Shown piece by piece: positions 43,929-62,785 of a DNA stretch of 64,000 nt. The stretch comes from Dictyobacter arantiisoli (GTDB lineage Bacteria; Chloroflexota; Ktedonobacteria; Ktedonobacterales; Ktedonobacteraceae), in contig NZ_BIXY01000021.1 of the NCBI RefSeq assembly GCF_008326305.1, positions 1 to 64,000 on the forward strand. The letters are read 5' to 3'. A model generated the notes under the pieces. The model was not told where the DNA came from. It saw nothing but the letters and a program-made list of their open reading frames with translations, and did not search any database. The position numbers were made by a program, and so were the translations under genes. Within the stretch, counting starts at the first letter, position 1; each line of letters opens with the position of its first letter.

Positions 43929-44714
43929 TCAGGCGTTTCTGGTCTTGCCCAGGTTGCCAGGAATGTCTTTATTCAGGCCAATATGGTTGACGACGACGCG
44001 TACACCGGGGATACCGACGACCTCGCGCTCCAACGCATATTTCATACTTGAATTGGGGACATCTCCATACAGATGTAAAATATAATTCTCGACCAGAACA
44101 GAGATATTTTTTGCACCTTCGAGCTTGCCCTGCGTCTTCAGCTTTTCGATGCGACTGTAAGCACCCTCCAGGATGCTATCTTCGGCAACAACGAAGTTAC
44201 GTACGCTGGCTACGCCCGGTACTTGACTGACTTCGGCTTCCAGACGTTCACGCTGAACCATGAGCTCAACTTTCCCATACAGGGTGATGACGGCACCTTC
44301 TGGCGTCTCGCTCTCAAGTTCCGCTTTAATTGGATGGATACTATAGGCTGTGCTGCCAAAGGTAACCACCCGCTCAACAGCTGCGCGTGCATTGTCCAGT
44401 ACTTCACTACCAGGCAATATCACAACCGGCCTGGCTGTCGCTACCCCTGCATGAGCACCCATAGGATCTTCCAGTGCCCAACCAAGGATACCGATAAAGA
44501 CAAAGACGGCTGCCACTAGCGTCAGCCAGGGGGCATCAGGAACAAACAATAGTCCAACCACGGCGACCAGAATGAAGGCGCTTAACAGAAACGGCCACGC
44601 ACTGGGTCCGGGCATATGGATATGGTGTTCCGCCTCTTCTGCGTCCTGATATGTCTCAAGGGACGAATCAACATCATCCACTGCGAGATTTACTCTTTGA
44701 AGAGATGATTCCAT
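43929..44714 (-). CDS. Membrane protein with two BON domains
   Basis: About 261 residues. An N-terminal acidic cytoplasmic stretch (about 45) precedes two close membrane helices (WPFLLSAFILVAVVGLLFV, then TLVAAVFVFIGILGWAL). Two BON-type lipid-binding domains follow: the first around VITLYGKVELMVQRERLEAEVSQVPGVASVRN, the second around LYGDVPNSSMKYALEREVVGIPGVRVVVNH, each with the conserved central Gly. BON proteins such as OsmY bind envelope lipids under stress. ATG at 44714 with GGAGGAG upstream. Function is not defined; no neighbour explains it. Confidence 0.8.
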   Translation of the reverse strand: MESSLQRVNLAVDDVDSSLETYQDAEEAEHHIHMPGPSAWPFLLSAFILVAVVGLLFVPDAPWLTLVAAVFVFIGILGWALEDPMGAHAGVATARPVVILPGSEVLDNARAAVERVVTFGSTAYSIHPIKAELESETPEGAVITLYGKVELMVQRERLEAEVSQVPGVASVRNFVVAEDSILEGAYSRIEKLKTQGKLEGAKNISVLVENYILHLYGDVPNSSMKYALEREVVGIPGVRVVVNHIGLNKDIPGNLGKTRNA

Positions 44715-44881
44715 ACGCTCTCGCTCTCCTCCGCGAATGGTATACAATCAGCGCGGACTGATATATTTTTCGTAATAGTAGTCCTGTACGTCTAAGCATA
44801 GCAAATATATATGCTTCGTGCAACCTGACGGAAGCTACCCCTTCGCTGCCTTGAAGGGCTTGCCATCCCATATTTCTCTAT

Positions 44882-46533: not shown

Positions 46534-47187
46534 TTATTTTTCTTGTAGTAATTGTTTCAGGTTAGCGGCCATCTGTGCTGGTTGAAAGTCGTCGCCCATA
46601 TAGACGCGTTCGCGTCCCTGTTTATCGATCAGATAGAGTGCGGTCGTATGGTTAATACTCTGCTTGAACGATTGGGCGTTGATGCTATATTTGCTCCAGA
46701 TTGGTGAAAGTTCTTGCTGGGTTCCTGTCAAGAAGTGCCAGGAATTCTGCATATTATGTTCGGTTGAAAATTGCAGTGCCGCCTGCGTGGTATCTCCTTT
46801 AGGATCAGTACTGACCGCCAGGATACCTACTTTGCTGGCATCGGAGCCCATTTGTAACAGGGCCGTGTGCAGATGCTCCGCCGTTAGTGGGCAGACATCA
46901 GGACAGTGCGTGTAGAGAAAGGTCACCACCAGCGGTTTGCCGTGGAATTGCGCGAGCGAAACCGTTTTGCCGTATTGATCGGTGAGCTGGAAGCCAGGTG
47001 CCGGTGTGCCACCGAGATCCGTCCCCTGCAATTGCAATGTGGACGTTGTGCTGGTCGTTGCACCACCACTTTGAGCCGGTACGTTTGTGCGCTGGTGTTG
47101 AATCAGTGCTACCACGATCACGACAACGATGGCGAGTGTTATTACTGATAGGCGCGAAGCAAGCCGCCAGTTCATACGTATACTCAT
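46534..47187 (-). CDS. SCO1/SenC-type copper chaperone for cytochrome oxidase
   Basis: 217 residues. An N-terminal membrane anchor (about 13-30) precedes an extracytoplasmic thioredoxin-fold domain with the copper-binding CPDVC pair in YTHCPDVCPLTAEHL and a downstream His in SWHFLTG. SCO proteins load copper into the CuA site of oxidase subunit II. It is downstream of ctaB by 18 bp in the same operon and divergent from coxB, a consistent oxidase assembly context. Confidence 0.93.
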   Translation of the reverse strand: MSIRMNWRLASRLSVITLAIVVVIVVALIQHQRTNVPAQSGGATTSTTSTLQLQGTDLGGTPAPGFQLTDQYGKTVSLAQFHGKPLVVTFLYTHCPDVCPLTAEHLHTALLQMGSDASKVGILAVSTDPKGDTTQAALQFSTEHNMQNSWHFLTGTQQELSPIWSKYSINAQSFKQSINHTTALYLIDKQGRERVYMGDDFQPAQMAANLKQLLQEK

Positions 47188-47205: not shown

Positions 47206-48120
47206 CTAGAAAAGCACTCGGTCTACCACCATTATCGCGAAGATCGCAGCCAGATAGCAGTTGGAGTACCAGAAAATAGTGCGTGCCCATTTGTGCTGTT
47301 TGTCTATCAACAGGCGAACCGACATATAAATCAGAATGCTGTCCATAATGACGACACTGACCAGATACAGATAGCTCATGGTATGCATAAGGAAAGGCAT
47401 CAGTGTCACGGCTCCCAGCAAGAGCGAATAGAAGAAGATCTGGCGTCGTGTTTCGGCCTCGCCAAACATCACCGGCATCATCGGCACATTTACCTTGGCA
47501 TAGTCTTTTTGAATGAGTAATGCGAGTGCCCAGAAGTGTGGCGGGGTCCAATAAAAGACGATCGCGGTCAGCCAGATCGCATCCAGTGAAATATAATTGG
47601 TCGCGGCAGTCCAGCCGATCAGAACCGGAAGTGCGCCCGGCAGGCCACCGATCACAATATTCTGAGCGGTTGTGCGTTTGAGCCCCATCGTATAGATCAC
47701 AACATAAAACAGGATCGCGCCCAATCCCAGGGCCGCACTCAACAGATTGACAAAGAATCCGAAGACGAGGCAGGATAAGACACCCATGACGAGGCCAAAG
47801 ATCAGGGCCTGACGGGGCTGCACTTTACCAGCAGGTAAAGAGCGGCGCTGCGTACGTCCCATAATCTGGTCGATGTCGCGGTCAATATAGCAATTAATCG
47901 AATTCGCGCTTCCTGCCGCCAACGTTCCACCGAGCAGCGTTGCCAGCACCAATCCTAGATTGGGTAGACCCCGATCTGCGATGGCCATGGTTGCGAGAGT
48001 TGTCCCCAGTAACAACACAGTTACGTGTGGTTTCATCAGATTGATATAGGCGGAAAGTGTCTGACGCCAGGCACTCTCTTGCTTTGGTTCTTCAATCTCG
48101 GTATGGCTTAACACCTTCAT
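47206..48120 (-). CDS. ctaB: Protohaem IX farnesyltransferase (haem O synthase)
   Basis: 304 residues with about nine membrane helices, UbiA prenyltransferase family. The first Asp-rich motif NCYIDRDIDQIMGRTQRR binds farnesyl diphosphate; the second conserved loop includes YTPPHFWAL-like WTPPHFWAL and KDYAKVNVPMMP. It converts haem B to haem O, required for the caa3 oxidase encoded divergently. ATG start. No ctaA (haem A synthase) gene is visible in the window. Confidence 0.95.
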   Translation of the reverse strand: MKVLSHTEIEEPKQESAWRQTLSAYINLMKPHVTVLLLGTTLATMAIADRGLPNLGLVLATLLGGTLAAGSANSINCYIDRDIDQIMGRTQRRSLPAGKVQPRQALIFGLVMGVLSCLVFGFFVNLLSAALGLGAILFYVVIYTMGLKRTTAQNIVIGGLPGALPVLIGWTAATNYISLDAIWLTAIVFYWTPPHFWALALLIQKDYAKVNVPMMPVMFGEAETRRQIFFYSLLLGAVTLMPFLMHTMSYLYLVSVVIMDSILIYMSVRLLIDKQHKWARTIFWYSNCYLAAIFAIMVVDRVLF

Positions 48121-48700
48121 GTACAGGCTCCCTTTTCGTCTATAGAGTTTGACGTCTCCTATTTTCGGCGTCGTTCCTGATACTGCCCTTGCAGTAGCTT
48201 TCTCTTACCTTACAATTGCCTGAACGTTTGTAATTGATTGGATCGAAAGAAAAAGCTCCTGGTAGAGAAATTTCCCTTGTCGCTCTTTCCTTCCCTTGCT
48301 ATAGTATGTAAAAGGATTTGTGGAGCGGTCAGCAATGATGTGAACTGATGTCGAACTCAACTTTTGGATGATCCCATAACAGTAGGAACCAATCCTTATT
48401 CCGGGAACTGCAATTCTTGTTGTCTGTTAGAATTATCTGCCAAAATTCTAGAGATACTGTTCACATGCTCTTTTTTGCTGGTATGCTTTTGCCTGGCACA
48501 ACCAATTGATCAGCCTGCTACTCCCGAATACTGAGGAGAAGGCGCTTCTTCGTTCAGGCTCTTGTAAGGTTCCTTTTTTAAATTGCAAGTTCCATGTCAG
48601 GCTCTATAGCTACATTACAGCGTATAGTGGAACAATGTCGCCAAAATGAGAGACATCATCGTCCATCATCAAAGAATTGTTTTTTAGGAGAGATTTAGAC
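48121..48700. other. 580-bp divergent region between haem O synthase and oxidase operon
   Basis: It holds a candidate rightward promoter (48277-48305) far upstream of coxB and a small inverted repeat TAGAATT...AATTCTA (48428-48450). If the promoter is real, the coxB leader is almost 400 nt. No gene with a good ribosome site is visible. Confidence 0.4.
48277..48305 (+). promoter_or_regulatory. Candidate promoter for the oxidase operon
   Basis: TTGTCG (48277-48282), 17-base spacer, TATAGT (48300-48305). The match is fair; a nearer promoter cannot be excluded. Confidence 0.4.
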
Positions 48701-49849
48701 GTGAGGATGCCGGTATTTCGTAGGAAAAAGCACTGGTTAGCTGCGCTGACCGGAGTGCTTTTATCCTCTATTCTATTAGCCGCATGCGGCGAAAACTCAC
48801 CTTCTATCTTGAACGTCGCGGGACCAGTGGCAGAGAGCGAGAGTAGCCTGTTCTGGTTGATTCTTTATCTTGCTCTAGCCATTTTCATCCTGGTAGAAGG
48901 TGTATTGATCTACTCCATTTTCAAGTATCGTGAACGTCCTGGAACTCCAAACCCATACCAGAACCACGGTAACATGTTATTGGAGCTTGTCTGGACCGTT
49001 ATTCCAACGGTGGTCCTATTTGTGATCTTATTCTTCACTATTCGCGGCCTATTGCAAGTCGCGCCGGAGGCTGAACCAGCCGCCTCAGCATCACAGCCGA
49101 AAATCGAAGTGACTGCTGTTGGTCACCAGTGGTACTGGGAATTCTATTATCCAAAGTACAATGTGACCACTGCCGATACTCTGGAAGTGCCGGTGGGTAC
49201 GACTGTGCACGTCAAACTATTCTCAAATAATGTCATCCACAGCTTCTGGGTCCCTTCCTTAACAGGTAAGACCGACGTTGTGCCGGGCCACGACAATACC
49301 AAATGGTTTGTGGCACAAAAGACCGGGTTATTCACAGGTATCTGCGCCGAGTATTGTGGTACACAGCACGCCAACATGCGTTTCAATGTCAACGTAGTGG
49401 ACAACAGCAGCTTCATGACCTGGATTTCGGGTCAGCAACAGGCTGCCGCTGCTCCAACAGACGCACTGGCACAAAAGGGTGAAGCATTATTCAAAAATCA
49501 GTGTGCCTCCTGTCATGGTATTGTCGGCGTAAATGTGACGCAGTTCTACAATACAGCCCAGGAATGTACCGATCTGCCAGGTGGTAAAGCCAACGGCACG
49601 CCACAGTGTTTGATTGGACCAAATCTGACGCACTTCGGTAGCCGCTCTCTGATTGCTGGTGGTGTATTGGATAACAATACCAAAGATAATAATTGCGATC
49701 CAAATAATCCGAACCTGATGCAATCCTGTAATCTCGCGAAATGGCTGAAAGATCCTCAGGCGGTCAAACCTGGGAACGATATGGCTATTGGCGCACTCAG
49801 TAATGCCGAGATTCAGCAATTGATTGCATACCTTGAAGGGTTGAAATAA
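48701..49849 (+). CDS. coxB: Cytochrome c oxidase subunit II with fused cytochrome c domain (caa3 type)
   Basis: About 382 residues. A lipoprotein-type signal (LLAAC) and two membrane helices precede a cupredoxin domain with the CuA ligands in GHQWYWEF and CAEYCGTQHANM. A C-terminal cytochrome c domain follows with CASCHG haem attachment and a distal Met probably in NDMAIG. This makes it a caa3-type oxidase that accepts electrons through its own haem c. GTG at 48701 is chosen because AGGAGA lies 9 bases upstream. It needs both SCO1 (copper) and the Ccm genes at 58-64 kb (haem attachment). Confidence 0.95.
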   Translation: MRMPVFRRKKHWLAALTGVLLSSILLAACGENSPSILNVAGPVAESESSLFWLILYLALAIFILVEGVLIYSIFKYRERPGTPNPYQNHGNMLLELVWTVIPTVVLFVILFFTIRGLLQVAPEAEPAASASQPKIEVTAVGHQWYWEFYYPKYNVTTADTLEVPVGTTVHVKLFSNNVIHSFWVPSLTGKTDVVPGHDNTKWFVAQKTGLFTGICAEYCGTQHANMRFNVNVVDNSSFMTWISGQQQAAAAPTDALAQKGEALFKNQCASCHGIVGVNVTQFYNTAQECTDLPGGKANGTPQCLIGPNLTHFGSRSLIAGGVLDNNTKDNNCDPNNPNLMQSCNLAKWLKDPQAVKPGNDMAIGALSNAEIQQLIAYLEGLK

Positions 49850-49902: not shown

Positions 49903-51591
49903 ATGGCAACTAGCACGATCGGTGAGCGCGCTACAACCATAGATGTTCGCCGAAAGCGTTTTAGTGAAACCTATATCGGTGAGTGGATTACAACGACCGA
50001 TCATAAGCAACTCGGTCTGATGTATCTGATCACAGGTTTCTTTTTCTTTGTTGTGGGTGGCATGGAGGCTCTCCTGATCCGCACCCAGCTGGCCTTGCCA
50101 AATGGTAAAGTATTAGATCCTGATACCTATAATCAGATCTTTACCATGCATGGCACGACCATGATCTTCTTGTTCGTGATACCAGTGCTCTCGGGTTTTG
50201 GTAACTATATCGTGCCGCTGATGATTGGTGCACGCGATATGGCCTATCCCCGTATGAATGCCTTTGGCTTCTGGCTCCTACTCTTTGGTGGTATCTTCAT
50301 GCAGTCCAGCTTCCTGTTTGGTCAGGCACCAAACGGCGGCTGGTTTATGTATGCGCCATTGAGTGAGCTGGCGGCTGGACATGCCTTCCAGGCGACTCCG
50401 CACATGAATGCGGACTTCTGGCTGCTGGGTACCACCTTACTGGGTATCTCGTCGATCACCGGTTCTTTGAACTTTGTTGTCACGGTCTTCAAATTGCGCG
50501 CTCCTGGCATGAGCATTAACCGCATGCCGCTGTTCACATGGATGATCCTGGTGATGTCCTTCCTGTTGCTGTTCGCGTTGCCAAGCCTGACCGTTGCCAG
50601 CGTCTTGTTGCTGCTGGACCGTCACATGGGTGCGCATTTCTATCAGTATGGCAGTGGTGGTGATCCACTTCTCTGGCAACACCTGTTCTGGTCCTTCGGA
50701 CATCCCGAAGTATACATCCTGATTCTCCCGGCCTTTGGTATTGTCTCTGAGATTCTGCCGGTCTTCTCGCGTAAACCGATCTTTGGCTATACCTTTATCG
50801 CCTGGTCCGGTGTTGCGATTGGCTTCTTGAGCTTTACCGTCTGGGCCCACCATATGTTCGCAGTTGGTCTGCCATCGATTGCGCAAGCCTTCTTTGCGAC
50901 CAGCACGACCCTGATCGCCATTCCAACGGCTGTCAAAATCTTCAACTGGCTGGCGACGATCTGGGGTGGTAAGATTCGCTTTAACGCGCCGATGCTCTTC
51001 GCATTGGGCTTTATCGCGATGTTCCTGATTGGTGGTCTGAACGGCGCTGCCCTGGCGGTCGTGCCTTTTGACTACCAGATCACAGACAGCTACTTCGTCG
51101 TGGCGCATATCCACTATGTGCTCTTCGGTGGTACTGCGCTGGCCGTGTTCGCGGGCATCTACTACTGGTTCCCGAAATTCACCGGCAAGTTGATGGATGA
51201 CCGTCTGGCAAAGTGGCACTTCTGGGTCACCTTTATTGGTCTGAACCTGACCTTCTTCCCAATGCACCTCATGGGTATTCTGGGCATGCCTCGGCGCGTC
51301 TATACCTATCCAGCCAATCTGGGTTGGAATGATTTGAATGCCATGGCTTCGGTTGGTGCCTTCATCATTGGTGTAGGCGTAATCCTGTTCATGATCAACA
51401 TTATCAAGAGCCTGAAGGCCGGGCAGGCCGCTGGCGATGATCCCTGGGATGCCTATACGCTGGAATGGGATACCACATCTCCTCCGAAAAAATATAACTT
51501 CCTGGAGATTCCGGTGGTGCGTAGCCGCCGTCCCTTCTATGACAAGAAGTATCCTGATATTGCTGACTGGAAAAACGTCATTAAGCACTAA
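49903..51591 (+). CDS. ctaD: Cytochrome c oxidase subunit I
   Basis: 562 residues with 12 or more membrane helices. Haem-copper ligands are visible: MHGTTMIFLF (low-spin haem His), FGHPEVYILILPAFG (CuB His with the crosslinked Tyr, and the Glu of the D channel), WAHHMF (CuB His pair), and VVAHIHYVLFGG (haem a and a3 His). The GHPEVY sequence marks an A1-type oxidase. It reduces O2 to water and pumps protons. GGAGG lies upstream of the ATG. Second gene of the oxidase operon. Confidence 0.97.
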   Translation: MATSTIGERATTIDVRRKRFSETYIGEWITTTDHKQLGLMYLITGFFFFVVGGMEALLIRTQLALPNGKVLDPDTYNQIFTMHGTTMIFLFVIPVLSGFGNYIVPLMIGARDMAYPRMNAFGFWLLLFGGIFMQSSFLFGQAPNGGWFMYAPLSELAAGHAFQATPHMNADFWLLGTTLLGISSITGSLNFVVTVFKLRAPGMSINRMPLFTWMILVMSFLLLFALPSLTVASVLLLLDRHMGAHFYQYGSGGDPLLWQHLFWSFGHPEVYILILPAFGIVSEILPVFSRKPIFGYTFIAWSGVAIGFLSFTVWAHHMFAVGLPSIAQAFFATSTTLIAIPTAVKIFNWLATIWGGKIRFNAPMLFALGFIAMFLIGGLNGAALAVVPFDYQITDSYFVVAHIHYVLFGGTALAVFAGIYYWFPKFTGKLMDDRLAKWHFWVTFIGLNLTFFPMHLMGILGMPRRVYTYPANLGWNDLNAMASVGAFIIGVGVILFMINIIKSLKAGQAAGDDPWDAYTLEWDTTSPPKKYNFLEIPVVRSRRPFYDKKYPDIADWKNVIKH

Positions 51592-51639: not shown

Positions 51640-52017
51640 ATGGTGTCTCAAGAACAAAAAGATCATGTAGAGCAACAAGTAGTAGATGAGCAGGAGGAGG
51701 ACGCAGGCGTCTCTTCTCCTGACACCACCCCGACCCCCGACTCTGCATTATCTGATGATAAGCAGGAGTCACAGCCGGAGGCCGCGACAACGGGGGGGCA
51801 GCAACAAGCAGTCCGTACAGGCAAGCGTCGGGGACGAGCCAGAGGACGTCTGGTCAATGCCGAAGAGGTGATGCCAAAGCCAAGCCTCTGGCCGCTGGCC
51901 GTGGCTTTCTCTATCGCGTTCGTGCTGTTTGGTGTGATTGCCGGTCTTGTTGTCCTTGTGATCGGTGTCATACTCCTTGTTGCATCGATTGTGGGTTGGA
52001 TACTGGAGCGTCGATAA
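51640..52017 (+). CDS. Small membrane protein within the oxidase operon
   Basis: 125 residues: an acidic, Gln/Pro/Thr-rich N-terminal half (1-60), a basic stretch RTGKRRGRARGR, then two hydrophobic helices near the C-terminus (LWPLAVAFSIAFVLFGVIAGL and VLVIGVILLVASIVGWIL). The location between ctaD and coxC and the hairpin of membrane helices suggest a small oxidase subunit, analogous to subunit IV, but I recognise no family motif. ATG with AGAGG upstream. Confidence 0.7.
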   Translation: MVSQEQKDHVEQQVVDEQEEDAGVSSPDTTPTPDSALSDDKQESQPEAATTGGQQQAVRTGKRRGRARGRLVNAEEVMPKPSLWPLAVAFSIAFVLFGVIAGLVVLVIGVILLVASIVGWILERR

Positions 52018-52090
52018 GAGAGAGCCTGTGTTTGCTACTTTGGTAGCGGACACAGGTGATTATTCTCGCGTAGTTAAGGGAGTGACTTGT

Positions 52091-52711
52091 ATGAGTGTTG
52101 CTCATGGCGAGCAAGTACGAGTGTTGGAAGAAGAGCACGGCCAGGTAGGTGAACGGAGCCTCAACTGGTGGGGCATGGTCTTTTTCATCGCCTCTGAGGC
52201 TCTGATCTTCGCCAACCTGATTGCTGCTTACCTCTATCTAGAGATTCGTAACAACAACGATATCTGGCAATTGCCGCATAGCAATCTGTTTTTGCCTCTG
52301 CTCAATACCGCTATCCTGCTTGGTAGTAGCGTTTCAGTGCATTTTGCAGGCACTGGTATTCGCAAAGGCAATGTAAGGCAGCTAATCATTGGTTTAAGTG
52401 TCACCATTTTCCTGGGTGCCTGTTTCTTGGTTGGTCTGGCCTATGAATGGACCTCATTGATTGCTGACGAGCATTTCAGTATCTCCAGCAGCATTTTTGG
52501 TTCAGCCTTTTTCACGCTGACAGGCTTTCACGGTCTGCACGTCACCATCGGTGCGATCTTCCTGGCCGTCTGTCTGGTGCGTGCCACGAAGGGCCATTTT
52601 AGCAAGCAGCAGCATTTCGCTGTCCAGGCGGCTGAAATGTACTGGCACTTTGTGGACGTGGTCTGGCTGTTCGTCGTAACATTGGTCTACTTTGTACCGC
52701 TGTTCCGCTAA
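52091..52711 (+). CDS. coxC: Cytochrome c oxidase subunit III
   Basis: 206 residues with about five membrane helices. Typical motifs are WWGMVFFIASEALIFANLIAAYLYL, FFTLTGFHGLHVTIGAIFL and EMYWHFVDVVWLFVVTLVYF near the C-terminus. It stabilises proton uptake by subunit I. ATG at 52091 with AGGGAG upstream is preferred over the longer frame that would overlap the preceding gene. Last gene of the operon, followed by a hairpin. Confidence 0.95.
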   Translation: MSVAHGEQVRVLEEEHGQVGERSLNWWGMVFFIASEALIFANLIAAYLYLEIRNNNDIWQLPHSNLFLPLLNTAILLGSSVSVHFAGTGIRKGNVRQLIIGLSVTIFLGACFLVGLAYEWTSLIADEHFSISSSIFGSAFFTLTGFHGLHVTIGAIFLAVCLVRATKGHFSKQQHFAVQAAEMYWHFVDVVWLFVVTLVYFVPLFR

Positions 52712-53018: not shown

Positions 53019-53432
53019 ATGAAAGATGCGATGCGCAGTGGCGCGCCTGGCGTTGCTGTTCCACCCCATGATACGCGTAAGCGACAGAGCCGTTTGCCCG
53101 TATATTGTTCTATTTGTACAAATCGTATCTGGTCCGAGCCAATGAATATTGTAGAGCCAGATGGCGTGCCAGAACCACGCCTTTCATGGACATTATGTAA
53201 AGCCTGTTATCAGGCCCTGGTGGTTGAGATGAGTCGCTCACCACTACAATCTCCCCTGCGGCTACGTATCGCGATGGGATTAGTGGCGGCGGAGCGCTGG
53301 CCGCATGCGTATTCTACCCGTGTGCGCGAATATGTAAGTGATCGACGCTGGATCATTTTTATGGCTGCGGCTTTTATTATTGCAATGCTCGTTCACCTGA
53401 TGCTTATCGTGATGATCGCGGGCATCAAATAA
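53019..53432 (+). CDS. Small membrane-anchored protein with two CxxC pairs
   Basis: 137 residues. Residues about 29-72 hold two Cys pairs, YCSICTNRIW and LCKACYQAL, spaced like a zinc ribbon. A basic amphipathic middle follows, then a C-terminal transmembrane helix (IIFMAAAFIIAMLVHLMLIVMIAGI). The zinc-binding part should face the cytoplasm. No family is recognised. It stands alone between the oxidase operon and the histidine kinase gene. Confidence 0.65.
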   Translation: MKDAMRSGAPGVAVPPHDTRKRQSRLPVYCSICTNRIWSEPMNIVEPDGVPEPRLSWTLCKACYQALVVEMSRSPLQSPLRLRIAMGLVAAERWPHAYSTRVREYVSDRRWIIFMAAAFIIAMLVHLMLIVMIAGIK

Positions 53433-53611: not shown

Positions 53612-55630
53612 ATGTCCTCCTCCATTGAAAAAAAACACAGCAAAACCACCGGTGGATTGTGGATTGCGGAGAATGCTGCGCCAGTAACCCCACATCCAGG
53701 TAGACCTACAGAACCTATCCCCGCAGGTTTTACGCGTGAGTATCAGGTTCTCGCAGAAATGTGCGCCAGCATGAGTAGTGGCTTTATGCTCCTTAATCAG
53801 CATGGCCGCGTAACCTATTCGAATGAAAGTGCTTTGCGCCTGTTGCGTGTTGATGTACGGGATCGTTCCGCGTTTCAGGAATTTGATGTCCAGGAGCATT
53901 TGCTGGCTCTGTCAACCGATCCACAACATGCCAGAGCAGATCTGGAACAACTCTGGCAGCATCAGGATCAGGAGCGGTCAACTGATCTCTCATTGATTGA
54001 TGCTGCCGCCAACTGGTTACGTGTACGCAGTTTTCCTGTCCATGATGAGCAGGGTCGCAGCCTGGGTCGTGGTGTGTTGCTTGATGATATTACTCTGGAA
54101 CGTTCCGCGGCCGCATCCCGGACCGAGACGTTGATGATGGCGGCGCATGAGTTTAAAACGCCACTGGCTATTATTAAGGGTTGTGCGACCACCCTGCTGG
54201 GTGGCTCCGCGCGCTGGGACCCCTCCATGCAGCGCGAGATGTTACAGATGATCGATGCACAGTCTGATCGCTTGTATGATGTCTTAAATACGCTGCTAGA
54301 TGTCTGGCGCTTTGATGCGGGCACTCAACCGCTGCATCTTGCTCAGGTCCAGCTCTCCGAACTTATCTTACAATTGATTACACGCTGGCAGAAGCAGTCT
54401 CCTGAGCATCGCTTTGTCCTGGATCTGCCCGATGATGTGCCTACGGTAACCTGTGATGCGTTGCGTATCGAGCAAACCCTGAATCACTTGCTGAATAACG
54501 CGGTGAAAAATTCGCATGCCGGACAAATTGTGCGGACAATGCTTGATTTTACGGCTGGCGAGTTGCGGGTGAGCGTGAGCGATGAGGGTATCGGCATCGC
54601 GTCAGAACATCTGGAGCGTATCTTTGATCGCTTTTATCGCATTGAGCAGGCCAGTAAAGCCCACAATGAACACGAGGATGCCGCTCTGTCGGATGAGCCG
54701 GGGGGAAGTGGGTTGGGACTCTCAGCGGCACGCGCGACTATTGAAGCACATCGAGGGCGCATCTGGGCTGAGTCGGCAGGACCGGGCAAGGGCGCTACCT
54801 TTTTCTTCACCTTACCATTAAACGCCAGCCGTTACGCTCCTATAGAGACTTTGACTGCGCTTGAGGAGCCGGAAACGAGTAGTGGAGTGACCGGACCGTT
54901 GCGCAAAACGCGCACGTCGTCTCTGGATCAGGGCCGCCATGTGCGTGTCCTGCTGGCGGAGAATGATGCTCGCCTGGCACGCTATATTCGTGCCAATTTA
55001 GAAGAGCAGCAATATCGGGTACGGGTCGTCACCCATGGTATTCAATTCTTACGTCAGTTGGATTTGGAAGAGACGGATGTGATTTTGCTCTCTACCCAGC
55101 TTGCGGATATGAGTGGTGCAGAGTTGCTCAAGCGCTTGCGTGAATTCTCCCATGCGCCAGTAATCATGCTCTGTGATGCCTGTGATGAGGATGAGCGGGT
55201 GCAGATGTTTGAACTGGGTAGCGATGATCTGGTTGTCAAACCTTTTGGGATGCGTGAGTTGTTGGCACGCGTACGTGCCCTCTTGCGTCGTCAGGGACCA
55301 CCAGCCGAGCAGAAGCAACAACCGTCAATTTTCACAACTGGCGAGCTGACCATCGACTATGCGCAGCATCAGGTGACGGTGCGTGGACAGGCTGTTCAGT
55401 TGAGCCGTACCGAGTATAAACTGCTCAGCACTCTGGCGCAGAATGTTGGCCTGGTCGTGACGCATGAGTTATTGCTGGAAAAGGTCTGGGGGCCGGAATA
55501 CAATCGCGATATTGACTTTATCTGGGTCTATATCAGTCGCCTGCGCCGTAAAATCGAGGCGAACTCGCGCCATCCTGAATATATCCTTACCGTACCGGAT
55601 GTAGGCTATAAATTAGCCAGGCATGCATAA
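53612..55630 (+). CDS. Cytoplasmic histidine kinase fused to a degenerate receiver and OmpR-type winged helix
   Basis: 672 residues in one chain. A PAS-like domain (about 45-150) is followed by HisKA with the phosphorylatable His179 in AAHEFKTP. The HATPase follows with NHLLNNAVK, DEGIGI and GGSGLGLS. A receiver-like domain (about 444-560) is next, and a PhoB/OmpR-type winged helix (about 570-670) ends the protein. In the receiver the phospho-acceptor Asp of the LLD motif is Ser494 (VILLSTQL) and the switch Thr is Cys (MLCDA), while Lys543 (VKPF) remains. No membrane segment exists. Kinase and DNA-binding output in one protein is uncommon. It may signal by conformation, or pass phosphate to the receiver protein encoded next. 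Confidence 0.9.
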   Translation: MSSSIEKKHSKTTGGLWIAENAAPVTPHPGRPTEPIPAGFTREYQVLAEMCASMSSGFMLLNQHGRVTYSNESALRLLRVDVRDRSAFQEFDVQEHLLALSTDPQHARADLEQLWQHQDQERSTDLSLIDAAANWLRVRSFPVHDEQGRSLGRGVLLDDITLERSAAASRTETLMMAAHEFKTPLAIIKGCATTLLGGSARWDPSMQREMLQMIDAQSDRLYDVLNTLLDVWRFDAGTQPLHLAQVQLSELILQLITRWQKQSPEHRFVLDLPDDVPTVTCDALRIEQTLNHLLNNAVKNSHAGQIVRTMLDFTAGELRVSVSDEGIGIASEHLERIFDRFYRIEQASKAHNEHEDAALSDEPGGSGLGLSAARATIEAHRGRIWAESAGPGKGATFFFTLPLNASRYAPIETLTALEEPETSSGVTGPLRKTRTSSLDQGRHVRVLLAENDARLARYIRANLEEQQYRVRVVTHGIQFLRQLDLEETDVILLSTQLADMSGAELLKRLREFSHAPVIMLCDACDEDERVQMFELGSDDLVVKPFGMRELLARVRALLRRQGPPAEQKQQPSIFTTGELTIDYAQHQVTVRGQAVQLSRTEYKLLSTLAQNVGLVVTHELLLEKVWGPEYNRDIDFIWVYISRLRRKIEANSRHPEYILTVPDVGYKLARHA

Positions 55631-55659
55631 GTCATAGCCAGGAAAACATACTATTTTTG

Positions 55660-55690
55660 AACCCGTCTCCATATAATATGGGGGCGGGTT
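55660..55690 (+). terminator. Terminator after the fused histidine kinase gene
   Basis: AACCCGTCTCCATAT (55660-55674) pairs with ATATGGGGGCGGGTT (55676-55690), with two G-T pairs and a single-base apex, followed by TTTGTTTTC. A TATAAT at 55707-55712 just after it could be the -10 box of the next gene, though no matching -35 is clear. Confidence 0.8.
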
Positions 55691-55863
55691 TTTGTTTTCA
55701 ATACGTTATAATTGTGGGGGGAATGAGATTAAACTCATAAATGTTCAGGTCACTGTAAGGGGATTTCGCTAGCTGTCAAAGATTCTGTAATGTGGGCCTC
55801 GTATGCTTACTATGAATACGATACTATTTAGCTATTTTTACTGGTAGCGATAGAGGTGCATAT

Positions 55864-56484
55864 ATGTCGCAAGGGCTACAGCCATCAGTTTCGACGGTCC
55901 TGTTATTGGAGACTGATCCTTCCATTCGGCGTATGATTACGCTTGGTCTACGCCATCGTGGACTCCATGTGATCGAGTCCATTTCATTGTCAACTCTTTC
56001 TGCTCGTGATGTGCAAAAATTGGATTTACTGATTGTAGATGTTGATGATGGAATTCGTTGTGACCGGGCTATGCTTGAAGCCGCTCAGGCACATCCGCAA
56101 TTGTCAGCCTTACCTACGGTCGTGCTGTCCTGGGAGCCTCTGATAGAACAGAAGGATCAGCAGGTGGCTGTGACCAAGCCCTTTGACGCACGCGCTTTGC
56201 ACGCCGGGATTGACCAATTGCTGCTGGCGCGTAGTGCCGCACAGATCCAGCAACTACAACAGGCCGAGGCTCTCCTTCTGGCGTCCTATGCTAAACATAC
56301 TGCTCCCAGCATCTGGCCTGCCATCACTGCTGCGGGTGTGCTACTGGTTGTGATTGGTTTATTGTTACAATTTGCGATCACCATTATTGGCCTGCTCGTG
56401 ATTGTCTGTGGATTGCTGTTATGGACTATTGGCTCCCATACATCAGTTGAGAAGCCTGAATTGTCTCTCACTGTGGGTAAATGA
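55864..56484 (+). CDS. Receiver-domain protein with C-terminal membrane hairpin
   Basis: 206 residues. The receiver domain (about 10-120) has the acidic pair in LLLETDPS, phospho-acceptor Asp59 in LLIVDVDDG, the Ser/Thr switch in VVLSW and Lys105 in VTKPF. A helix rich in Gln and Leu (about 125-145) leads to two adjacent membrane helices (about 151-170 and 171-190). There is no DNA-binding or enzymatic output domain. Receivers tethered to the membrane by a C-terminal hairpin are unusual. It follows the fused kinase, whose own receiver has lost its Asp, so it may be the actual phosphate acceptor; that is inference. Confidence 0.8.
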   Translation: MSQGLQPSVSTVLLLETDPSIRRMITLGLRHRGLHVIESISLSTLSARDVQKLDLLIVDVDDGIRCDRAMLEAAQAHPQLSALPTVVLSWEPLIEQKDQQVAVTKPFDARALHAGIDQLLLARSAAQIQQLQQAEALLLASYAKHTAPSIWPAITAAGVLLVVIGLLLQFAITIIGLLVIVCGLLLWTIGSHTSVEKPELSLTVGK

Positions 56485-58076: not shown

Positions 58077-58192
58077 GTGCGTAAAAAATGTTCAGGACAT
58101 TGTAAGGTGAGAGGGAAAGCCTGCAAGTTGGCTATCAGGCTCAAGCACCATAATCGTGGTGATGTTCTTTAGTTTGTGAGAATTGTGCTGTT

Positions 58193-58804
58193 ATGGAAAT
58201 AAATGATTCGCTGACCAGAAGATCCCGCAAGCGTAATATTATCGTCTTTATTGTGACGAATGTGTTGATCGTTGGCCTGCTGGTGCTATTATGGACTCAA
58301 CTTATGACTCCTAAAGTGGGTCTGACCCATTCACCGGATGAAAGTCTGGTGACAGTCGGAGATCTGCCCAGCCCACTTCTGGGCAAGCCCGCCCCTGGCT
58401 TTGCTTTGCCTTTGTTGCAGGGGAATGGTCAGAAAGTGAGTCTCTCTGATTTTAAAGGCAAGCCGGTGCTCATTAATTTCTGGGCGTCGTGGTGCGATCC
58501 CTGTAATCTTGAGGCTCCTTTTTTGCAGAACAAGTGGCCGGGATTGCAGTCCAAAGGCATTGTGATGCTGGGTATTGATGGCGGTGAGATGGCCAGTGCC
58601 GGTCAGGCATTTTTGAAAAAGTATAACATTAGCTATACCAATGTCGCTGATACTATCGGGGGCAATACAAGTCTGGCCTATGGTGTTTCCCAGATGCCGG
58701 AGACGTTTTTTATTAATGCGGATGGCAAGGTTGTGGCGCGCTGGGCCGGGCCACTGGATGATACAAATCTGCAAAAAGAATTAGCCAAACTGCATATGAA
58801 TTGA
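58193..58804 (+). CDS. TlpA/ResA/CcmG-like membrane-anchored thioredoxin
   Basis: 203 residues. A membrane anchor (about 15-36) precedes an extracytoplasmic thioredoxin-like domain: APGFALPLLQGNGQKVSLSDFKG, active site FWASWCDPCNLEAP (CxxC), GIDGGEM, and the cis-Pro region SQMPETFFI. In cytochrome c maturation such proteins reduce the CxxCH cysteines of apocytochrome c. It is the first gene of an apparent operon with CopD-like, CcmE, CcmF and CcmH genes, supporting a CcmG role. Confidence 0.9.
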   Translation: MEINDSLTRRSRKRNIIVFIVTNVLIVGLLVLLWTQLMTPKVGLTHSPDESLVTVGDLPSPLLGKPAPGFALPLLQGNGQKVSLSDFKGKPVLINFWASWCDPCNLEAPFLQNKWPGLQSKGIVMLGIDGGEMASAGQAFLKKYNISYTNVADTIGGNTSLAYGVSQMPETFFINADGKVVARWAGPLDDTNLQKELAKLHMN

Positions 58805-58817
58805 GGCGAGCATCGCT

Positions 58818-59276
58818 ATGTGGGAAATTCGCTGGATCGTTCGTCTTATCCATATTCTGGCCGCGAGTGTCTGGGTGGGTGGCAGTTTTATGTATCTGGC
58901 GGTGGTGATGCCAGCTCTGCGCCTGGGTGGACCCGCGCCAGCCGTGGCGGCGAAAGTGGCTGAACTCTTTAAGAAGATGGTCAATATATGCGTCGGGCTG
59001 TTATTATTCAGTGGTGCTTACCTGACGGTGGATCGTCTGACACAGACGCAATTGGGTTTGAGCTATATCGTCGTCCTTGTGCTGAAAATAATTGGTGCTC
59101 TCGGCTTATTTGTCCTGGCCGTCTATCTCAGTCAGAGTAATATTCGGCGTTTGGCGAAGCGCAAGACGCGTCTCTCGCAGGCCTCTCCCCAACTGATGTT
59201 AGCCCTGGGCATTCTGGTATTTATATTTGGTGCATTGCTCAACGCTTTGTTTGAGAACACCCTTGCGCCACATTGA
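58818..59276 (+). CDS. CopD-like four-helix membrane protein
   Basis: 152 residues with four membrane helices. The first holds RLIHILAASVWVGGSFMYL, matching the HxxxxxxWxGG pattern of the CopD/DUF2269-type domain; the last holds ALGILVFIFGALLNALF. CopD-type proteins are linked to copper import or haem-copper protein assembly. It starts 13 bp after the thioredoxin gene and sits before ccmE, so a role in haem or copper handling at the membrane is likely but unproven. Confidence 0.75.
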   Translation: MWEIRWIVRLIHILAASVWVGGSFMYLAVVMPALRLGGPAPAVAAKVAELFKKMVNICVGLLLFSGAYLTVDRLTQTQLGLSYIVVLVLKIIGALGLFVLAVYLSQSNIRRLAKRKTRLSQASPQLMLALGILVFIFGALLNALFENTLAPH

Positions 59277-59289
59277 TGGAGGTCGTATT

Positions 59290-59754
59290 GTGCAGCCTGC
59301 TTTAGACGTTTTGGATGCTTCCAGAGAGGGGTTGAAGAGAACAGCACCGCCGCGCAAGCGTGTCCCGTTCAGCTTTATCCTGGCCGGAATCGCTATCCTG
59401 GGTGCCATTATCTATCTTGTCTATGCCAATACCCAGGCCAGCGCGGTCTATTATTTGACGGTGCCAGAGCTGAAGCATTGTACCGATTGTGTTGCGCGCT
59501 CGGTGCGTGTGGCGGGTGTGGTACAGAACAACTCGGTGAAGCATACCAGTCAGGATCAGAGCATCTCGTTTACGATTACGGATAGCAATCAGACCTTGCC
59601 GGTCACTTACAGTGGAGTTGTGCCAGACATTTTTCGTGCTGGCGTTCAGGTCGTCGTGGAGGGTCACTATACTGGCAGTGGTGCGTTCCATGCTCAAACA
59701 TTGTTAGCGAAGTGTCCATCGAAATTTCAGTCTGCGACTCCTACCGCAAATTAA
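59290..59754 (+). CDS. ccmE: Cytochrome c maturation haem chaperone CcmE, Cys variant
   Basis: About 154 residues. One membrane helix (about 28-46) precedes a beta-barrel OB-fold domain: RVAGVVQNNSV, ISFTITDSNQTLPVTYSGVVPDIFRAG and VVVEGHYTGSGAFHAQTLLAKCPSKF. In the family the haem-binding residue is His in LAKHDENY; here the aligned residue is Cys142 (LAKCPSKF). Cys forms with a CxxxY motif are known in some bacteria and archaea; here the Tyr position is Phe146. GTG at 59290 with GGAGG upstream. It receives haem and passes it to CcmF. Confidence 0.88.
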   Translation: MQPALDVLDASREGLKRTAPPRKRVPFSFILAGIAILGAIIYLVYANTQASAVYYLTVPELKHCTDCVARSVRVAGVVQNNSVKHTSQDQSISFTITDSNQTLPVTYSGVVPDIFRAGVQVVVEGHYTGSGAFHAQTLLAKCPSKFQSATPTAN

Positions 59755-59763
59755 GGATTGACT

Positions 59764-61794
59764 GTGTACTTCTCAGATCTCGGCATTATTGCGCTTGTGT
59801 TAGCTTTAGGGTTTGCCATTTATACTGTTATCGCCTCGGTCGTGGGAGCGGTGCGTTCCGTGCCTCAACTGGTGGTGAGCGCGAAGCGCGGCCTGCTGGC
59901 AGTCACCTTTTTCTTTGTGCTGGCAGCCATAGCATTAATCGTGTCTTTCCTGACGCATGATTTTGGCGTCAACTATGTGGCTCAGCATTCCGATCTCTCG
60001 ATGCCCTGGTATTTTGTGACTGCGGCTTTTTATGGCGGTCAAGAAGGATCTCTGCTCTACTGGGCCCTGATGCTTTCGATCTTCTCGGCCATCTTTGTGT
60101 TTACCTCCAAACGTGCGCCAGCCGCGCTGGTGCCCTATGTGATGGCGACCTTGATGGCAATTGAAATCTTCTTCCTGATCGTGCTGACGGTCATCTCAAA
60201 TCCTTTTACGCGTTCAACAGTTGCGCCCCACGATGGCGCGGGCCTGAATCCATTGTTGATGGACCCCGGCATGCTAGTGCATCCTCCTACCTTGCTGATG
60301 GGCTACATGAGTTTTTCGGTGCCCTTTGCATTCGCCGTGGCCGCTCTGATTACGGGTCAGTTGAATGCCGAGTGGTTGCGCTCGATACGCCGCTGGATGC
60401 TGGCTTCATGGATGTTACAGACGGCTGGCCTCTTGCTGGGTGCCTGGTGGGCCTATCATGTATTGGGCTGGGGCGGCTATTGGAGCTGGGACCCCGTGGA
60501 GAATGCGGCGCTTTTACCCTGGCTGACGGCGGGCGCGTTCTTGCATTCCACGATGGTGCAGGAGCGTCGAGGCATGTTGAAGGTCTGGAACCTCTTTCTG
60601 GTGATTACCTCCTTTGCCCTCTCCATTTTTGGCACCTTTGAGGTGCGTAGCGGACTGATTAGTTCGGTCCACTCGTTTGCCTATTCTGCTATCGGTAGCT
60701 ATTTCCTGGTCTTTTTGATCATTGTGGTGGTCTTTTCCAGTGCCCTGTTTCTATTCCGTCTGCCGCACTTACGTCCTGAGCAGACATTTGATTCGGTGGT
60801 ATCGCGTGAGGGTGTCTTCTTACTGAATAACTTTTTGCTGGTCGGTATCACCTTTGCCGTTCTGTGGGGAACGCTGTTCCCATTGATTTCGGAGGCTTTC
60901 CAGGGACAGACAATGACGATGGGTCCTCCCTTTTATGATCAGGTGGTGGGTCCGTTGGCGGTAGTGCTGATCCTGGCGATGGGTATTGGTCCTCTGCTTG
61001 GCTGGCGGCGTACTTCCGCGCAGGCGCTGTGGCGCAACGCCAGTGTCCCTGCTATCGCGGCGGCTGTCTGTGCGGTTCTGCTGCCAGTGCTGGGGATTAC
61101 GGATGTGGTGGCCAATATTGGCTTCTCGGTCTGTGCTTTTACGGCTGGAGCAATCTTCTATGAACTCTGGCGTGGAGCGCGCGTACGTCATAGCCATGGT
61201 GAGCCATATGGCATGGCGGTATTTATGCTCTTTAAGCGTTACCGTCAGCGTTATGGTGGCTATGTGGTACATCTGGGCATGATCTTATTAGTCGCGGGTA
61301 TTATTGGTTCGCAGTTCTTCCAGCAGGAGAAGGACGCTGACCTGCATCCCGGACAAGATATGTCGGTGGGTGGCTATACCTTCACCTATCTTGGCAATAT
61401 CGATGCTAAGGATACGGATCGTGAGACGGTCTCTTCACAGGTACAGATCTGGCACGATGGTAAGCTGATTCAATATGTTTATCCGGGTCGTATTACCTAT
61501 AGCAGTTATCCCACGCAGCCAACCAGTGCGATTGTGATCAATACCTATGGGGTCACAGATGTCTATATCTATCTGGCGGATTGGCAGGGGGCATCGCAGG
61601 CCAAGTTGAGTGTCTTTATTAATCCGCTGGTATCCTGGGTCTGGGCAGGTGGCGTCTTGATGCTGCTGGGAGGATTCCTGTGCTGGTGGCCGACGCGTCG
61701 CCGGGCGGTGTCCGCTGTCCGAGCACCTCAATCGACTGCAGTGCCGGAGGCGTCCAGTTCATCCAGTGTGCCTGATGGAGGTGTGATCGCATGA
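59764..61794 (+). CDS. ccmF: Cytochrome c haem lyase CcmF
   Basis: About 676 residues with about 13-14 membrane helices. The WWD haem-handling motif is WGGYWSWDPVENAALLPWL, flanked by conserved His residues (MLVHPPTLLMGYM). The C-terminal soluble domain lies before a last helix (WVWAGGVLMLLGGFLCWW). It joins haem from CcmE to apocytochrome CxxCH outside the membrane. GTG at 59764 with AAGGA six bases upstream; a TTG two codons earlier is an alternative. It overlaps ccmH by 4 bases. No ccmABC genes are seen in the window. Confidence 0.95.
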   Translation: MYFSDLGIIALVLALGFAIYTVIASVVGAVRSVPQLVVSAKRGLLAVTFFFVLAAIALIVSFLTHDFGVNYVAQHSDLSMPWYFVTAAFYGGQEGSLLYWALMLSIFSAIFVFTSKRAPAALVPYVMATLMAIEIFFLIVLTVISNPFTRSTVAPHDGAGLNPLLMDPGMLVHPPTLLMGYMSFSVPFAFAVAALITGQLNAEWLRSIRRWMLASWMLQTAGLLLGAWWAYHVLGWGGYWSWDPVENAALLPWLTAGAFLHSTMVQERRGMLKVWNLFLVITSFALSIFGTFEVRSGLISSVHSFAYSAIGSYFLVFLIIVVVFSSALFLFRLPHLRPEQTFDSVVSREGVFLLNNFLLVGITFAVLWGTLFPLISEAFQGQTMTMGPPFYDQVVGPLAVVLILAMGIGPLLGWRRTSAQALWRNASVPAIAAAVCAVLLPVLGITDVVANIGFSVCAFTAGAIFYELWRGARVRHSHGEPYGMAVFMLFKRYRQRYGGYVVHLGMILLVAGIIGSQFFQQEKDADLHPGQDMSVGGYTFTYLGNIDAKDTDRETVSSQVQIWHDGKLIQYVYPGRITYSSYPTQPTSAIVINTYGVTDVYIYLADWQGASQAKLSVFINPLVSWVWAGGVLMLLGGFLCWWPTRRRAVSAVRAPQSTAVPEASSSSSVPDGGVIA

Positions 61795-62399
61795 GCAGTA
61801 TCTCTCGCGTCGCGCCTGCTCCCAGGCAACAGCGCTCACTCTATCTCTTGCTGGCGATTGTGGCCTTTATTGCCGCAGTCTGGTTCTGGCTCTATTTTGC
61901 CGTACCAAAGCAGCAAACGCTGGACCAGCATGTGCGCAGCATCGCTTCGCAGTTGCGCTGTCCCGTCTGTCAGGGCGAATCTGTTGCGGATGCTCCGCCA
62001 CTGATTGCTCAGCAGATGCGGGCATATATTCGTCAGGAAATTCAGGCTGGTGCATCCGATCAACAGATTATCCAGTATCTGTCCAGTCGCTATGGTTCAA
62101 ACATCGTCTGGGTGCCGCAGTGGCAAGGCTTTACCCTGTTAGCCTGGATCGTGCCGATGCTTTTGTTGCTGGCTGGCCTGATCTTTCTTACACTGGTCGT
62201 GCGAGACTGGCAAAACAGTGCCCTGCTGGCACGTGGACAGCCTGTTAGTAACATACGGACCGCCGATGCCACCGCGCTGGTAGAAGGATCTTTCCTCTCA
62301 GATGAAGATGCTGAGTTGGAGCGCTATCGTGTACAACTAGAACAAGAAATTGCCGCCGCTGACCCGCTCTTCAGGCGGACGAAAATGGAGGCTGACTGA
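61791..62399 (+). CDS. ccmH: CcmH-type cytochrome c maturation thiol reductase
   Basis: 202 residues. An N-terminal membrane helix (about 17-37) precedes the CcmH/CycL three-helix domain with active site LRCPVCQGESVADAPP (LRCxxC) and the following MRAYIRQEIQAGASDQQIIQYLSSRYG. A second membrane helix follows (about 115-145), then a cytoplasmic acidic tail. It reduces apocytochrome c or its mixed disulfide with CcmG. ATGA overlap with ccmF and a one-base overlap with the next gene show tight coupling. Confidence 0.92.
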   Translation: MSSISRVAPAPRQQRSLYLLLAIVAFIAAVWFWLYFAVPKQQTLDQHVRSIASQLRCPVCQGESVADAPPLIAQQMRAYIRQEIQAGASDQQIIQYLSSRYGSNIVWVPQWQGFTLLAWIVPMLLLLAGLIFLTLVVRDWQNSALLARGQPVSNIRTADATALVEGSFLSDEDAELERYRVQLEQEIAAADPLFRRTKMEAD

Positions 62400-62785
62400 T
62401 GGCGCTCGCTATTGCATTTATTCTGGGTTTGTTCGCTCTCGCTTTTGTACTCTATCCACTGGTAAGACGTTCTCGGAGTGAGGATGCATCCTCTGAGCCG
62501 TCCGTACCATCGCAGTCGCAAGAGCAGATAGCGGCAGGGCATGAAGACGCGCTGGAACTGATTGAGCGTGAGCAATCCGCCCGGGCGGCAATCCAGGAAG
62601 TTGAATTGGACTATCAGCTCGGCAATATAGATGAGCCAGATTATCGCTCTTTGCGTGAACGCTATATGCGACGGGCGTTGACCGCCCTGAAATCCCGCTA
62701 CGAGCGTGAAGAAGAAATTGATGATGAGATAGAAGAACAGCTACAGAAGTTAAAGGAGTCCTATGAGAAAACTAAGCAAGGCTAG
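62399..62785 (+). CDS. CcmI-N-terminus-like small membrane protein
   Basis: 128 residues: one N-terminal membrane helix (about 2-22), a Ser/Glu-rich linker, then a charged coiled-coil. The stretch AAIQEVELDYQLGNIDEPDY resembles the ELxxDxxxGxISexDY pattern of the CcmI/CycH N-terminal region. The TPR domain of CcmI is missing. It probably assists CcmH/CcmF in apocytochrome handling. The start overlaps the ccmH stop; the next gene begins within its 3' end. Confidence 0.75.
   Translation: MALAIAFILGLFALAFVLYPLVRRSRSEDASSEPSVPSQSQEQIAAGHEDALELIEREQSARAAIQEVELDYQLGNIDEPDYRSLRERYMRRALTALKSRYEREEEIDDEIEEQLQKLKESYEKTKQG

Follow-up and report, generated by a model that had tools for sequence, protein, structure and literature searches.

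A cytochrome oxidase subunit IV-like membrane segment on a pseudo-receiver encoded with a hybrid kinase and an oxidase gene cluster in Ktedonobacterales

What does a receiver protein do that lacks an output domain, ends in a membrane segment and is encoded next to a kinase whose own receiver has lost its phosphorylatable aspartate? The question is raised by two neighboring genes in the first 64,000 nucleotides of contig NZ_BIXY01000021.1 of Dictyobacter arantiisoli (assembly GCF_008326305.1, forward strand), the stretch that we analyzed and call the window. The original prediction, made from the letters of the window, saw in the first protein (REC) an intact membrane-tethered receiver that may take the phosphate of the neighboring kinase (KIN), act as a phosphate sink, or pull the kinase off DNA by drawing it to the membrane. 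By comparison with relatives we found that REC is a pseudo-receiver by a published definition, that its membrane segment is homologous to a hairpin of the cytochrome oxidase protein CtaF, and that its gene shares a putative operator with oxidase and cytochrome c maturation genes. We propose, tentatively and with slightly less than even confidence, that REC is a co-regulated membrane docking partner, perhaps located at the oxidase, which feeds respiratory status back to KIN by contact. The features of REC are as follows.

55864-56484, + strand: REC, 206 amino acids (open reading frame call, ATG start), pseudo-receiver (residues ~10-130) followed by a C-terminal membrane segment
55909-55914, + strand: Glu16-Thr17 of REC, the acidic-pair position, with Thr17 at DD2 (orthologue alignment)
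56038-56046, + strand: Asp59 (phospho-Asp position) to Asp61 (D+2) of REC (orthologue alignment)
56128-56133, + strand: Ser89 (Thr/Ser switch position) and Trp90 (T+1) of REC (orthologue alignment)
56176-56193, + strand: Lys105-Pro-Phe-Asp-Ala-Arg110 of REC, invariant in 28 of 28 orthologues
56308-56433, + strand: membrane segment of REC, residues 149-190 (family consensus PSIWP...G...G...W), a homologue of the CtaF hairpin by profile comparison

Orthologues of REC were present in 28 of the 101 genomes searched, the own genome included; matches in two further genomes (G031 and G097) were ordinary receivers and were removed from the initial 30. The identical 28 genomes were returned at E ≤1e-16 from a 400-genome sample of the phylum, in which the gene was found in 27 of 29 genomes of the family to which the window belongs (f1) and in the single genome of family f3, and in none of the 6 genomes of family f2 or the 11 of family f4. 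The window protein gave no match when searched against named genomes. One orthologue, cut at a contig end (G014), was left out of the 27-row alignments (A1 and A4) and of the segment profile described below. As predicted, no output domain was detected, and REC consists of a receiver and a single hydrophobic stretch, some 38 residues long. The mean hydropathy of this stretch is 1.9-2.5 among the 27 complete members, seven of which have a charged residue in it, at the last position only; the best 19-residue window elsewhere in the protein scores 0.85-1.73. Pfam Response_reg (PF00072) matched 23 of the 27 members at E ≤0.05, and nothing reaching E 0.1 was obtained with the window protein itself. 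An AlphaFold2 model of REC (mean pLDDT 83.7, pTM 0.62) had a response-regulator receiver as its top Foldseek match (E 1e-6), as were most of the 50 matches listed. By Foldseek and by PF00072, REC has the receiver fold.

The claim that REC carries all receiver residues was dropped once the 28 orthologues had been aligned. What stands of it is that Asp59 and Lys105 are invariant, together with Glu16, Asp61, Trp90 and the whole stretch from Lys105 to Arg110. The second acidic metal-binding residue (DD2, position 17), however, is never acidic (Ala in 16 members, Ser in 5, Thr in 4, Pro in 2, Gly in 1), the Thr/Ser switch at position 89 is Ser in 18, Ala in 9 and Cys in 1, so that it is missing in 10 of 28, and position T+1 is always Trp, where receivers usually carry a small residue. 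Judged by the five residues of a phosphorylatable receiver (DD1, DD2, D, T/S and K), all members keep DD1 (as Glu), D and K, 18 of 28 keep T/S and none keeps DD2, so the set is incomplete in REC. Receiver folds that lack at least one of these five active-site residues are defined as pseudo-receivers in an excerpt of PMC12632262 (Bourret and colleagues). Because the fold is present and DD2 is gone from every member, REC is a pseudo-receiver in this sense, as far as its sequence tells. The loss of the metal ligand and the bulky Trp at T+1, both common to all members, weaken the idea that REC takes the phosphate of KIN or acts as a sink for it. In the same paper, Val at T+1 is suggested to hinder phosphorylation of BldM.

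We next considered the membrane segment, for which the relevant neighbors are two oxidase genes upstream.

51640-52017, + strand: CtaF (Cyt_c_ox_IV, Pfam), with the hairpin homologous to the REC segment, 4 kb upstream of REC
51965-52711, + strand: CtaE, oxidase subunit III, to which Pfam COX3 matches only from profile position 67

A profile of the segment, built from the 27 complete members, was run over 4473 open reading frames from the window, 31 regions of relatives and three loci of the own genome. Beyond REC itself it matched 29 CtaF rows (E 2.7e-8 to 0.003, the CtaF of the window being counted twice), one other protein of the own genome (E 2.9e-6) and BON-type proteins (E 0.0018-0.53); the next open reading frame followed at E 0.91. 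The 27 CtaF segments, a set that omits the repeated own-genome loci L094-L096, scored on average 29.2 bits and at least 19.1 bits, against 11.9 bits for the best of 567 shuffled or reversed CtaF sequences. Of 155 natural hydrophobic 50-mers the top two, both from the BON-type segment, reached 7.7 and 7.2 bits, and the third 5.6 bits. Profile-profile comparison aligned the REC segment with CtaF over 48 columns with a probability of 98, and the hhalign score of this pair was 59.1, whereas none of 26 further hydrophobic windows from the cluster exceeded 14.5. Chance likeness between hydrophobic segments is ruled out by these shuffles, reversed sequences, natural 50-mers and control windows. The Pfam family PF12270 (Cyt_c_ox_IV) matched all 27 CtaF segments and, at E ≤0.05, 13 of the 27 REC members (best E 2.6e-5); DUF3040 and DUF7541 matched 11 and 10 of these members, more weakly than PF12270, and the window REC scored 13.6 bits with PF12270, below the curated cut-off of 26.9. 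From these comparisons, the membrane segment of REC and the hairpin of CtaF (cytochrome oxidase subunit IV) are homologues.

The origin of this hairpin may lie in another subunit. A CtaF profile weakly matched residues 14-59 of Rhodobacter subunit III, which form its first two helices, and Corynebacterium subunit 4 (E 0.031 each), and CtaE of the window lacks the first part of COX3, the region of transmembrane helices 1 and 2 (TM1-TM2). Five-helix forms of COX3 are described in an excerpt of PMC4013037. Together these matches are suggestive of the CtaF hairpin being a split-off TM1-TM2 of subunit III. REC might be a true regulatory subunit of the oxidase that sits in the place left by TM1-TM2, with KIN reading assembly or turnover through direct contact and no phosphate being transferred; we regard this stronger form of an oxidase-bound REC as unlikely.

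Segments of the CtaF type also occur on other proteins. One is the N-terminal PSxWP segment of a BON-domain protein encoded beside the oxidase genes (43929-44747, - strand); the BON-domain gene of one genus is followed by REC on the same strand, at a distance of about 0.9 kb. Another, on the own-genome contig C116 (L002:967-1842, - strand), precedes a soluble part that no Pfam family matches. The neighbor of this gene reads like a methionine aminopeptidase, and the locus is away from oxidase genes.

The partner that REC is predicted to contact is encoded directly upstream.

53612-55630, + strand: KIN, 672 amino acids, a PAS-HisKA-HATPase-receiver (Asp-less)-Trans_reg_C fusion (Pfam) with an OmpR-type DNA-binding domain (residues ~590-672)
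54146-54148, + strand: phospho-acceptor His179 of KIN, present in 30 of 30 orthologues
55091-55093, + strand: position 494 in the fused receiver of KIN, Ser replacing the phospho-Asp (alignment)

The PAS match of KIN falls slightly below the Pfam cut-off. Orthologues at E <1e-180 were found in 30 of the 101 genomes, namely all 29 of family f1 and that of f3, and 53 of the 101 matched at E ≤1e-60. No clear membrane segment is seen in the 30 orthologues, whose best 19-residue hydropathy is 1.18-2.05 and exceeds 1.6 in three. All of them have the catalytic residues His179, Asn296, Asp324, Gly326, Gly328, Gly367 and Gly369. That the receiver of KIN is dead was borne out, as Asp is missing at the aligned position 494 in every orthologue (18 Ser, 11 Ala and 1 Glu); in five KIN proteins, all from one genus, the next residue is an Asp.

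This combination of an intact kinase with a dead receiver bears on a rival explanation in which REC is a working phospho-acceptor. KIN would phosphorylate Asp59, with Asp61 or Asp18 replacing the metal ligand, and REC would act on the oxidase or drain phosphate. Since its own receiver is Asp-less, the phosphate of KIN has no obvious acceptor in cis, and in REC Asp59, Asp61 and Lys105 are invariant and position 18 is acidic in all 28 orthologues. The absence of the REC gene from family f4, in which the kinase has decayed, points in the same direction. The site of REC speaks against it, with DD2 lost and Trp at T+1 throughout, the Thr/Ser switch lost in 10 of 28 and the BldM example of a T+1 residue suggested to hinder phosphorylation (excerpt of PMC12632262). 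We consider REC quite unlikely to be a working phospho-acceptor of this kind.

The decay in family f4 was read from ten counterparts of KIN (L117-L123, L125, L129 and L130). Eight of them lie beside ctaB in divergent orientation and two on contigs without cta genes, one of which (G044b) starts at the contig end. The phospho-acceptor His is absent from nine of the ten, and the Asn and the G1 Asp are absent from all; the Asp of the fused receiver is kept in all ten, the receiver Lys is lost in five and DD2 in nine. By their residues these counterparts, which show the opposite pattern to KIN, are pseudokinase regulators that have retained the receiver Asp and the DNA-binding domain. The REC gene was thus found only where the kinase of KIN is intact, which is a single lineage contrast and not many independent events. 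In a tree of the receiver-DNA-binding part, f3 grouped with f4 (support 98/88) and f1 stood apart with weaker support (86/92); with 232 columns, long branches and a distant outgroup this tree serves as a hint only. If it is right, f4 may have lost REC as well as the kinase residues, and loss of the fused Asp may have happened separately in f1 (to Ser or Ala) and in f3 (to Glu).

The original prediction named co-conservation of the two genes as a check and would have been refuted had they been neither neighbors nor companions in relatives. This was not the case, as they occur together in 28 Ktedonobacterales genomes. In 21 of these they are adjacent on the same strand, with 127-282 bp between them. 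In five, all of one genus, they share a contig and are about 11-12 kb apart on opposite strands. In two genomes of another genus KIN and REC are on separate contigs, and the KIN contig of G006 continues for 9.6 kb without REC. KIN was found without a REC gene in two fragmented assemblies, G009 and G027; the contig of G009 stops about 160 bp past KIN, and a REC-type copy of the sequence box described next lies within those bases.

The sequences upstream of REC have in common a box, the 17-bp direct repeat TTCAGG-N4-TGTAAGG, which the window contains at four places. The REC copy is followed by what we presume to be the promoter.

55744-55760, + strand: box TTCAGGTCACTGTAAGG before REC (pattern match)
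48553-48569, + strand: box before ctaC (pattern match)
48208-48224, - strand: box before ctaB-sco1 (pattern match)
58091-58107, + strand: box before resA and the cytochrome c maturation genes (pattern match)
55776-55792, + strand: second, weaker direct-repeat site of the presumed REC promoter (position reading)
55802-55807, + strand: -10-like TATGCT of the presumed REC promoter (position reading)

The 7.2-Mb genome has five exact matches to the box, of which four are those in the cluster (ctaC, ctaB, REC and resA), and none to the reversed pattern. The fifth lies in a CRISPR-like array, where a spacer completes it by chance. This array (L217:1474-2773, own-genome contig C86) has 18 repeats about 73 bases apart, and the stray box is in the first copy. 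In a scan of 47 genomes of the class, all 30 with KIN had 2-5 exact boxes, 104 in total, compared with one match to the reversed pattern in the same 30; an exact box was found in none of the 11 f4 genomes and once each in two of the six f2 genomes. Within the loci examined, 99 of 109 box rows, which include some repeats from overlapping loci, precede ctaC, ctaB, REC or resA, and 10 precede none of these. Counted by gene, with at most one mismatch and within 450 bp upstream, the box was present before ctaC in 24 of 24 cases, REC in 23 of 28, resA in 17 of 20 and ctaB in 8 of 15. The three resA genes without a box of their own directly follow REC, and six of the seven remaining ctaB genes have a box about 1.1 kb upstream. 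By the same count no box was found before KIN (0/30), ctaD (0/25 testable), the zinc-ribbon gene upstream of KIN (0/29 testable), ccmF (0/18), SCO1 (0/15), DJ-1 (0/12) or GNAT (0/5).

The half-sites TTCAGG and GTAAGG are 11 bp apart and are followed, about 32 bp downstream, by a second, weaker pair. Among 21 distinct REC upstream sequences, 13 have TGTAAT at the offset of the second site and 16 have a -10-like hexamer nine bases after the second pair. Regulators of the OmpR/PhoB type bind close to the -35 region, at direct repeats spaced by about 11 bp. By its repeat spacing near the -35 region the box fits a putative operator of this type, and its layout looks as if an activator site had replaced the -35 element. 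A diverged box is also present between the KIN counterpart and ctaB in all eight f4 intergenic stretches examined, with one mismatch at best in seven and two in one; among 800 shuffles, none had at most one mismatch and five had two. KIN is the likely binder of the box because f4 shares with KIN both the diverged box and an intact DNA-binding part, and we predict that KIN presumably binds it. In one genus, a 638-codon open frame reading like a CtaA-CtaB fusion (L079:7310-9223, - strand) has a box directly upstream, and in G016, the g13 genome examined, the box precedes a longer ctaA-ctaB open reading frame.

In the proposal that we favor, KIN would bind the repeats that precede ctaC, ctaB, rec and resA-ccm, thereby activating the production of the oxidase, of haem and copper assembly proteins, of the cytochrome c maturation proteins and of REC. 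REC would be made along with the oxidase because it would be under the same KIN-activated box. The CtaF-type segment would anchor REC in the membrane with its receiver on the cytoplasmic side, possibly on the oxidase itself, and there REC would bind KIN via a receiver-kinase contact without accepting phosphate. It would thereby report the amount or state of the oxidase, through sequestration or an allosteric change of KIN. We infer this contact, the location on the oxidase, the topology and the sign of the feedback from sequence comparison. Of the three roles first suggested for REC, drawing KIN to the membrane and away from DNA is possible and best fits the pseudo-receiver, the membrane segment and the shared box.

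REC and KIN are part of a larger cluster in the order SCO1, CtaB, CtaC, CtaD, CtaF, CtaE, a zinc-ribbon membrane protein, KIN, REC, and then GNAT, DJ-1, ResA, CopD-like and CcmE-F-H-I.

46534-47187, - strand: SCO1-like (open reading frame; name from sequence reading)
47206-48120, - strand: CtaB (open reading frame; name from sequence reading)
48677-49849, + strand: CtaC with a CxxCH motif (open reading frame, similarity in relatives; name from sequence reading)
49903-51591, + strand: CtaD (open reading frame, similarity in relatives; name from sequence reading)
55659-55691, + strand: intrinsic-terminator-like hairpin between KIN and REC (terminator scan)
58193-62785, + strand: ResA-like thioredoxin, CopD-like, CcmE, CcmF, CcmH and CcmI-like proteins of cytochrome c maturation (names from sequence reading, except CopD-like, which has a Pfam match slightly below cut-off)

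Most of this cta-ccm cluster is kept in relatives, and Ktedonospora formicarum SOSP1-1 is among its carriers; a metagenome bin of the Ktedonobacterales (Chloroflexota) also belongs to the genomes with KIN. Such retention allows for a REC that is unconnected with KIN, serves the oxidase as an accessory or assembly protein and lies next to KIN only because the whole cluster is conserved. Indeed, conservation extends from SCO1/CtaB to CcmI and so beyond the KIN-REC pair; in G006 and G018 REC is beside resA-ccm and apart from KIN; and REC shares the box with ctaC and resA, whereas KIN has none at up to one mismatch. Against this, REC is absent from the family in which KIN has lost its kinase residues, which is one evolutionary contrast, and receiver folds mostly work with two-component partners. 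We judge a role of REC unrelated to KIN to be improbable, to much the same degree as a true oxidase subunit.

Several observations weigh against REC as a docking partner of KIN at the oxidase. The invariance of Asp59, Asp61 and Lys105 exceeds what a pure scaffold needs. When the PDB was searched with the REC segment profile, no oxidase chain came up at E ≤10. The two-helix hairpin predicted for REC agrees with the homology to CtaF, but AlphaFold2 gives one unbroken helix for residues 151-191; since it splits CtaF into two helices (20-37 and 39-60) and not REC, the hairpin topology is supported by the homology only. In five genomes, all of one genus, REC has no box before it and lies beyond the oxidase genes, 11-12 kb from KIN and on the opposite strand. 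A box with two mismatches precedes KIN in the window genome (53445-53461) and in the relative G010, so that KIN may regulate itself. In the window genome the terminator-like hairpin parts KIN from REC, which weakens the case for a KIN-REC operon there, but this is not general in relatives; a hairpin of comparable strength was found only in G003 among the 21 adjacent pairs, and the scan of the region found one site, compared with 3.0 expected in shuffles. Finally, the REC segment may be a mere anchor, because the same type of segment is found on the BON-domain protein and on another protein away from the oxidase genes. On the reading that follows from this last point, a segment of CtaF descent serves as a generic two-helix anchor without affinity for the oxidase, and REC only holds KIN at the membrane, which overlaps with our proposal in everything except the oxidase contact. 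REC stays in the oxidase/ccm gene set, however, and is under the box in 23 of 28 genomes, and we think an anchor of this kind rather unlikely.

Each part of the system is of a known kind, with pseudo-receivers, hybrid kinases and CtaF all described before, and it is the combination that may be new. According to an excerpt of PMC12632262, action by protein contact is among the mechanisms discussed for the bacterial pseudo-receivers FrzS and CmrT, and CmrT is encoded with an apparently normal kinase, as REC is with KIN. From the pseudo-receivers covered there REC differs in its C-terminal CtaF-type membrane segment, its lack of an output domain and its membership of an oxidase regulon, and in that the kinase encoded next to it carries an Asp-less receiver and a DNA-binding domain in its own chain. 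CtaF (PF12270), in turn, aligns with REC over the hairpin, and REC has a receiver domain in addition. KIN resembles the Bacteroides hybrid two-component systems (HTCS) in combining kinase, receiver and DNA-binding domain in one chain; as described in an excerpt of PMC11253607, these sense at the membrane, bind DNA through AraC-type domains and have receivers that become phosphorylated. KIN, by contrast, shows no clear membrane segment, its DNA-binding domain is of OmpR type, and Asp never occurs at position 494. In Mycobacterium smegmatis the two-component pair RsfSR reacts to changes in respiratory-chain status, loss of the aa3 oxidase among them (excerpt of PMC10950880). Unlike REC, RsfR is a PP2C-type phosphatase with a phosphorylated Asp74, and the excerpt mentions no oxidase-like segment. 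Among the papers listed in searches of the open PMC literature there was no precedent for the combination of KIN, REC and the CtaF segment, nor for a receiver-bearing respiratory subunit, which REC would be if it docks on the oxidase. Because the REC-KIN case is compact, with a conserved kinase neighbor, a predicted operator, four targets and a segment with a known relative, it makes contact-based signaling by pseudo-receivers directly testable. Docking of REC on the oxidase, if true, would explain how the haem-copper oxidase, its assembly and cytochrome c maturation are matched in these bacteria.

A further conserved gene lies between the oxidase genes and KIN. The zinc-ribbon membrane protein of the cluster (53019-53432) is small, without a Pfam match, and has four cysteines arranged in zinc-ribbon style and a C-terminal hydrophobic helix; it is encoded upstream of KIN in all 30 genomes with KIN.
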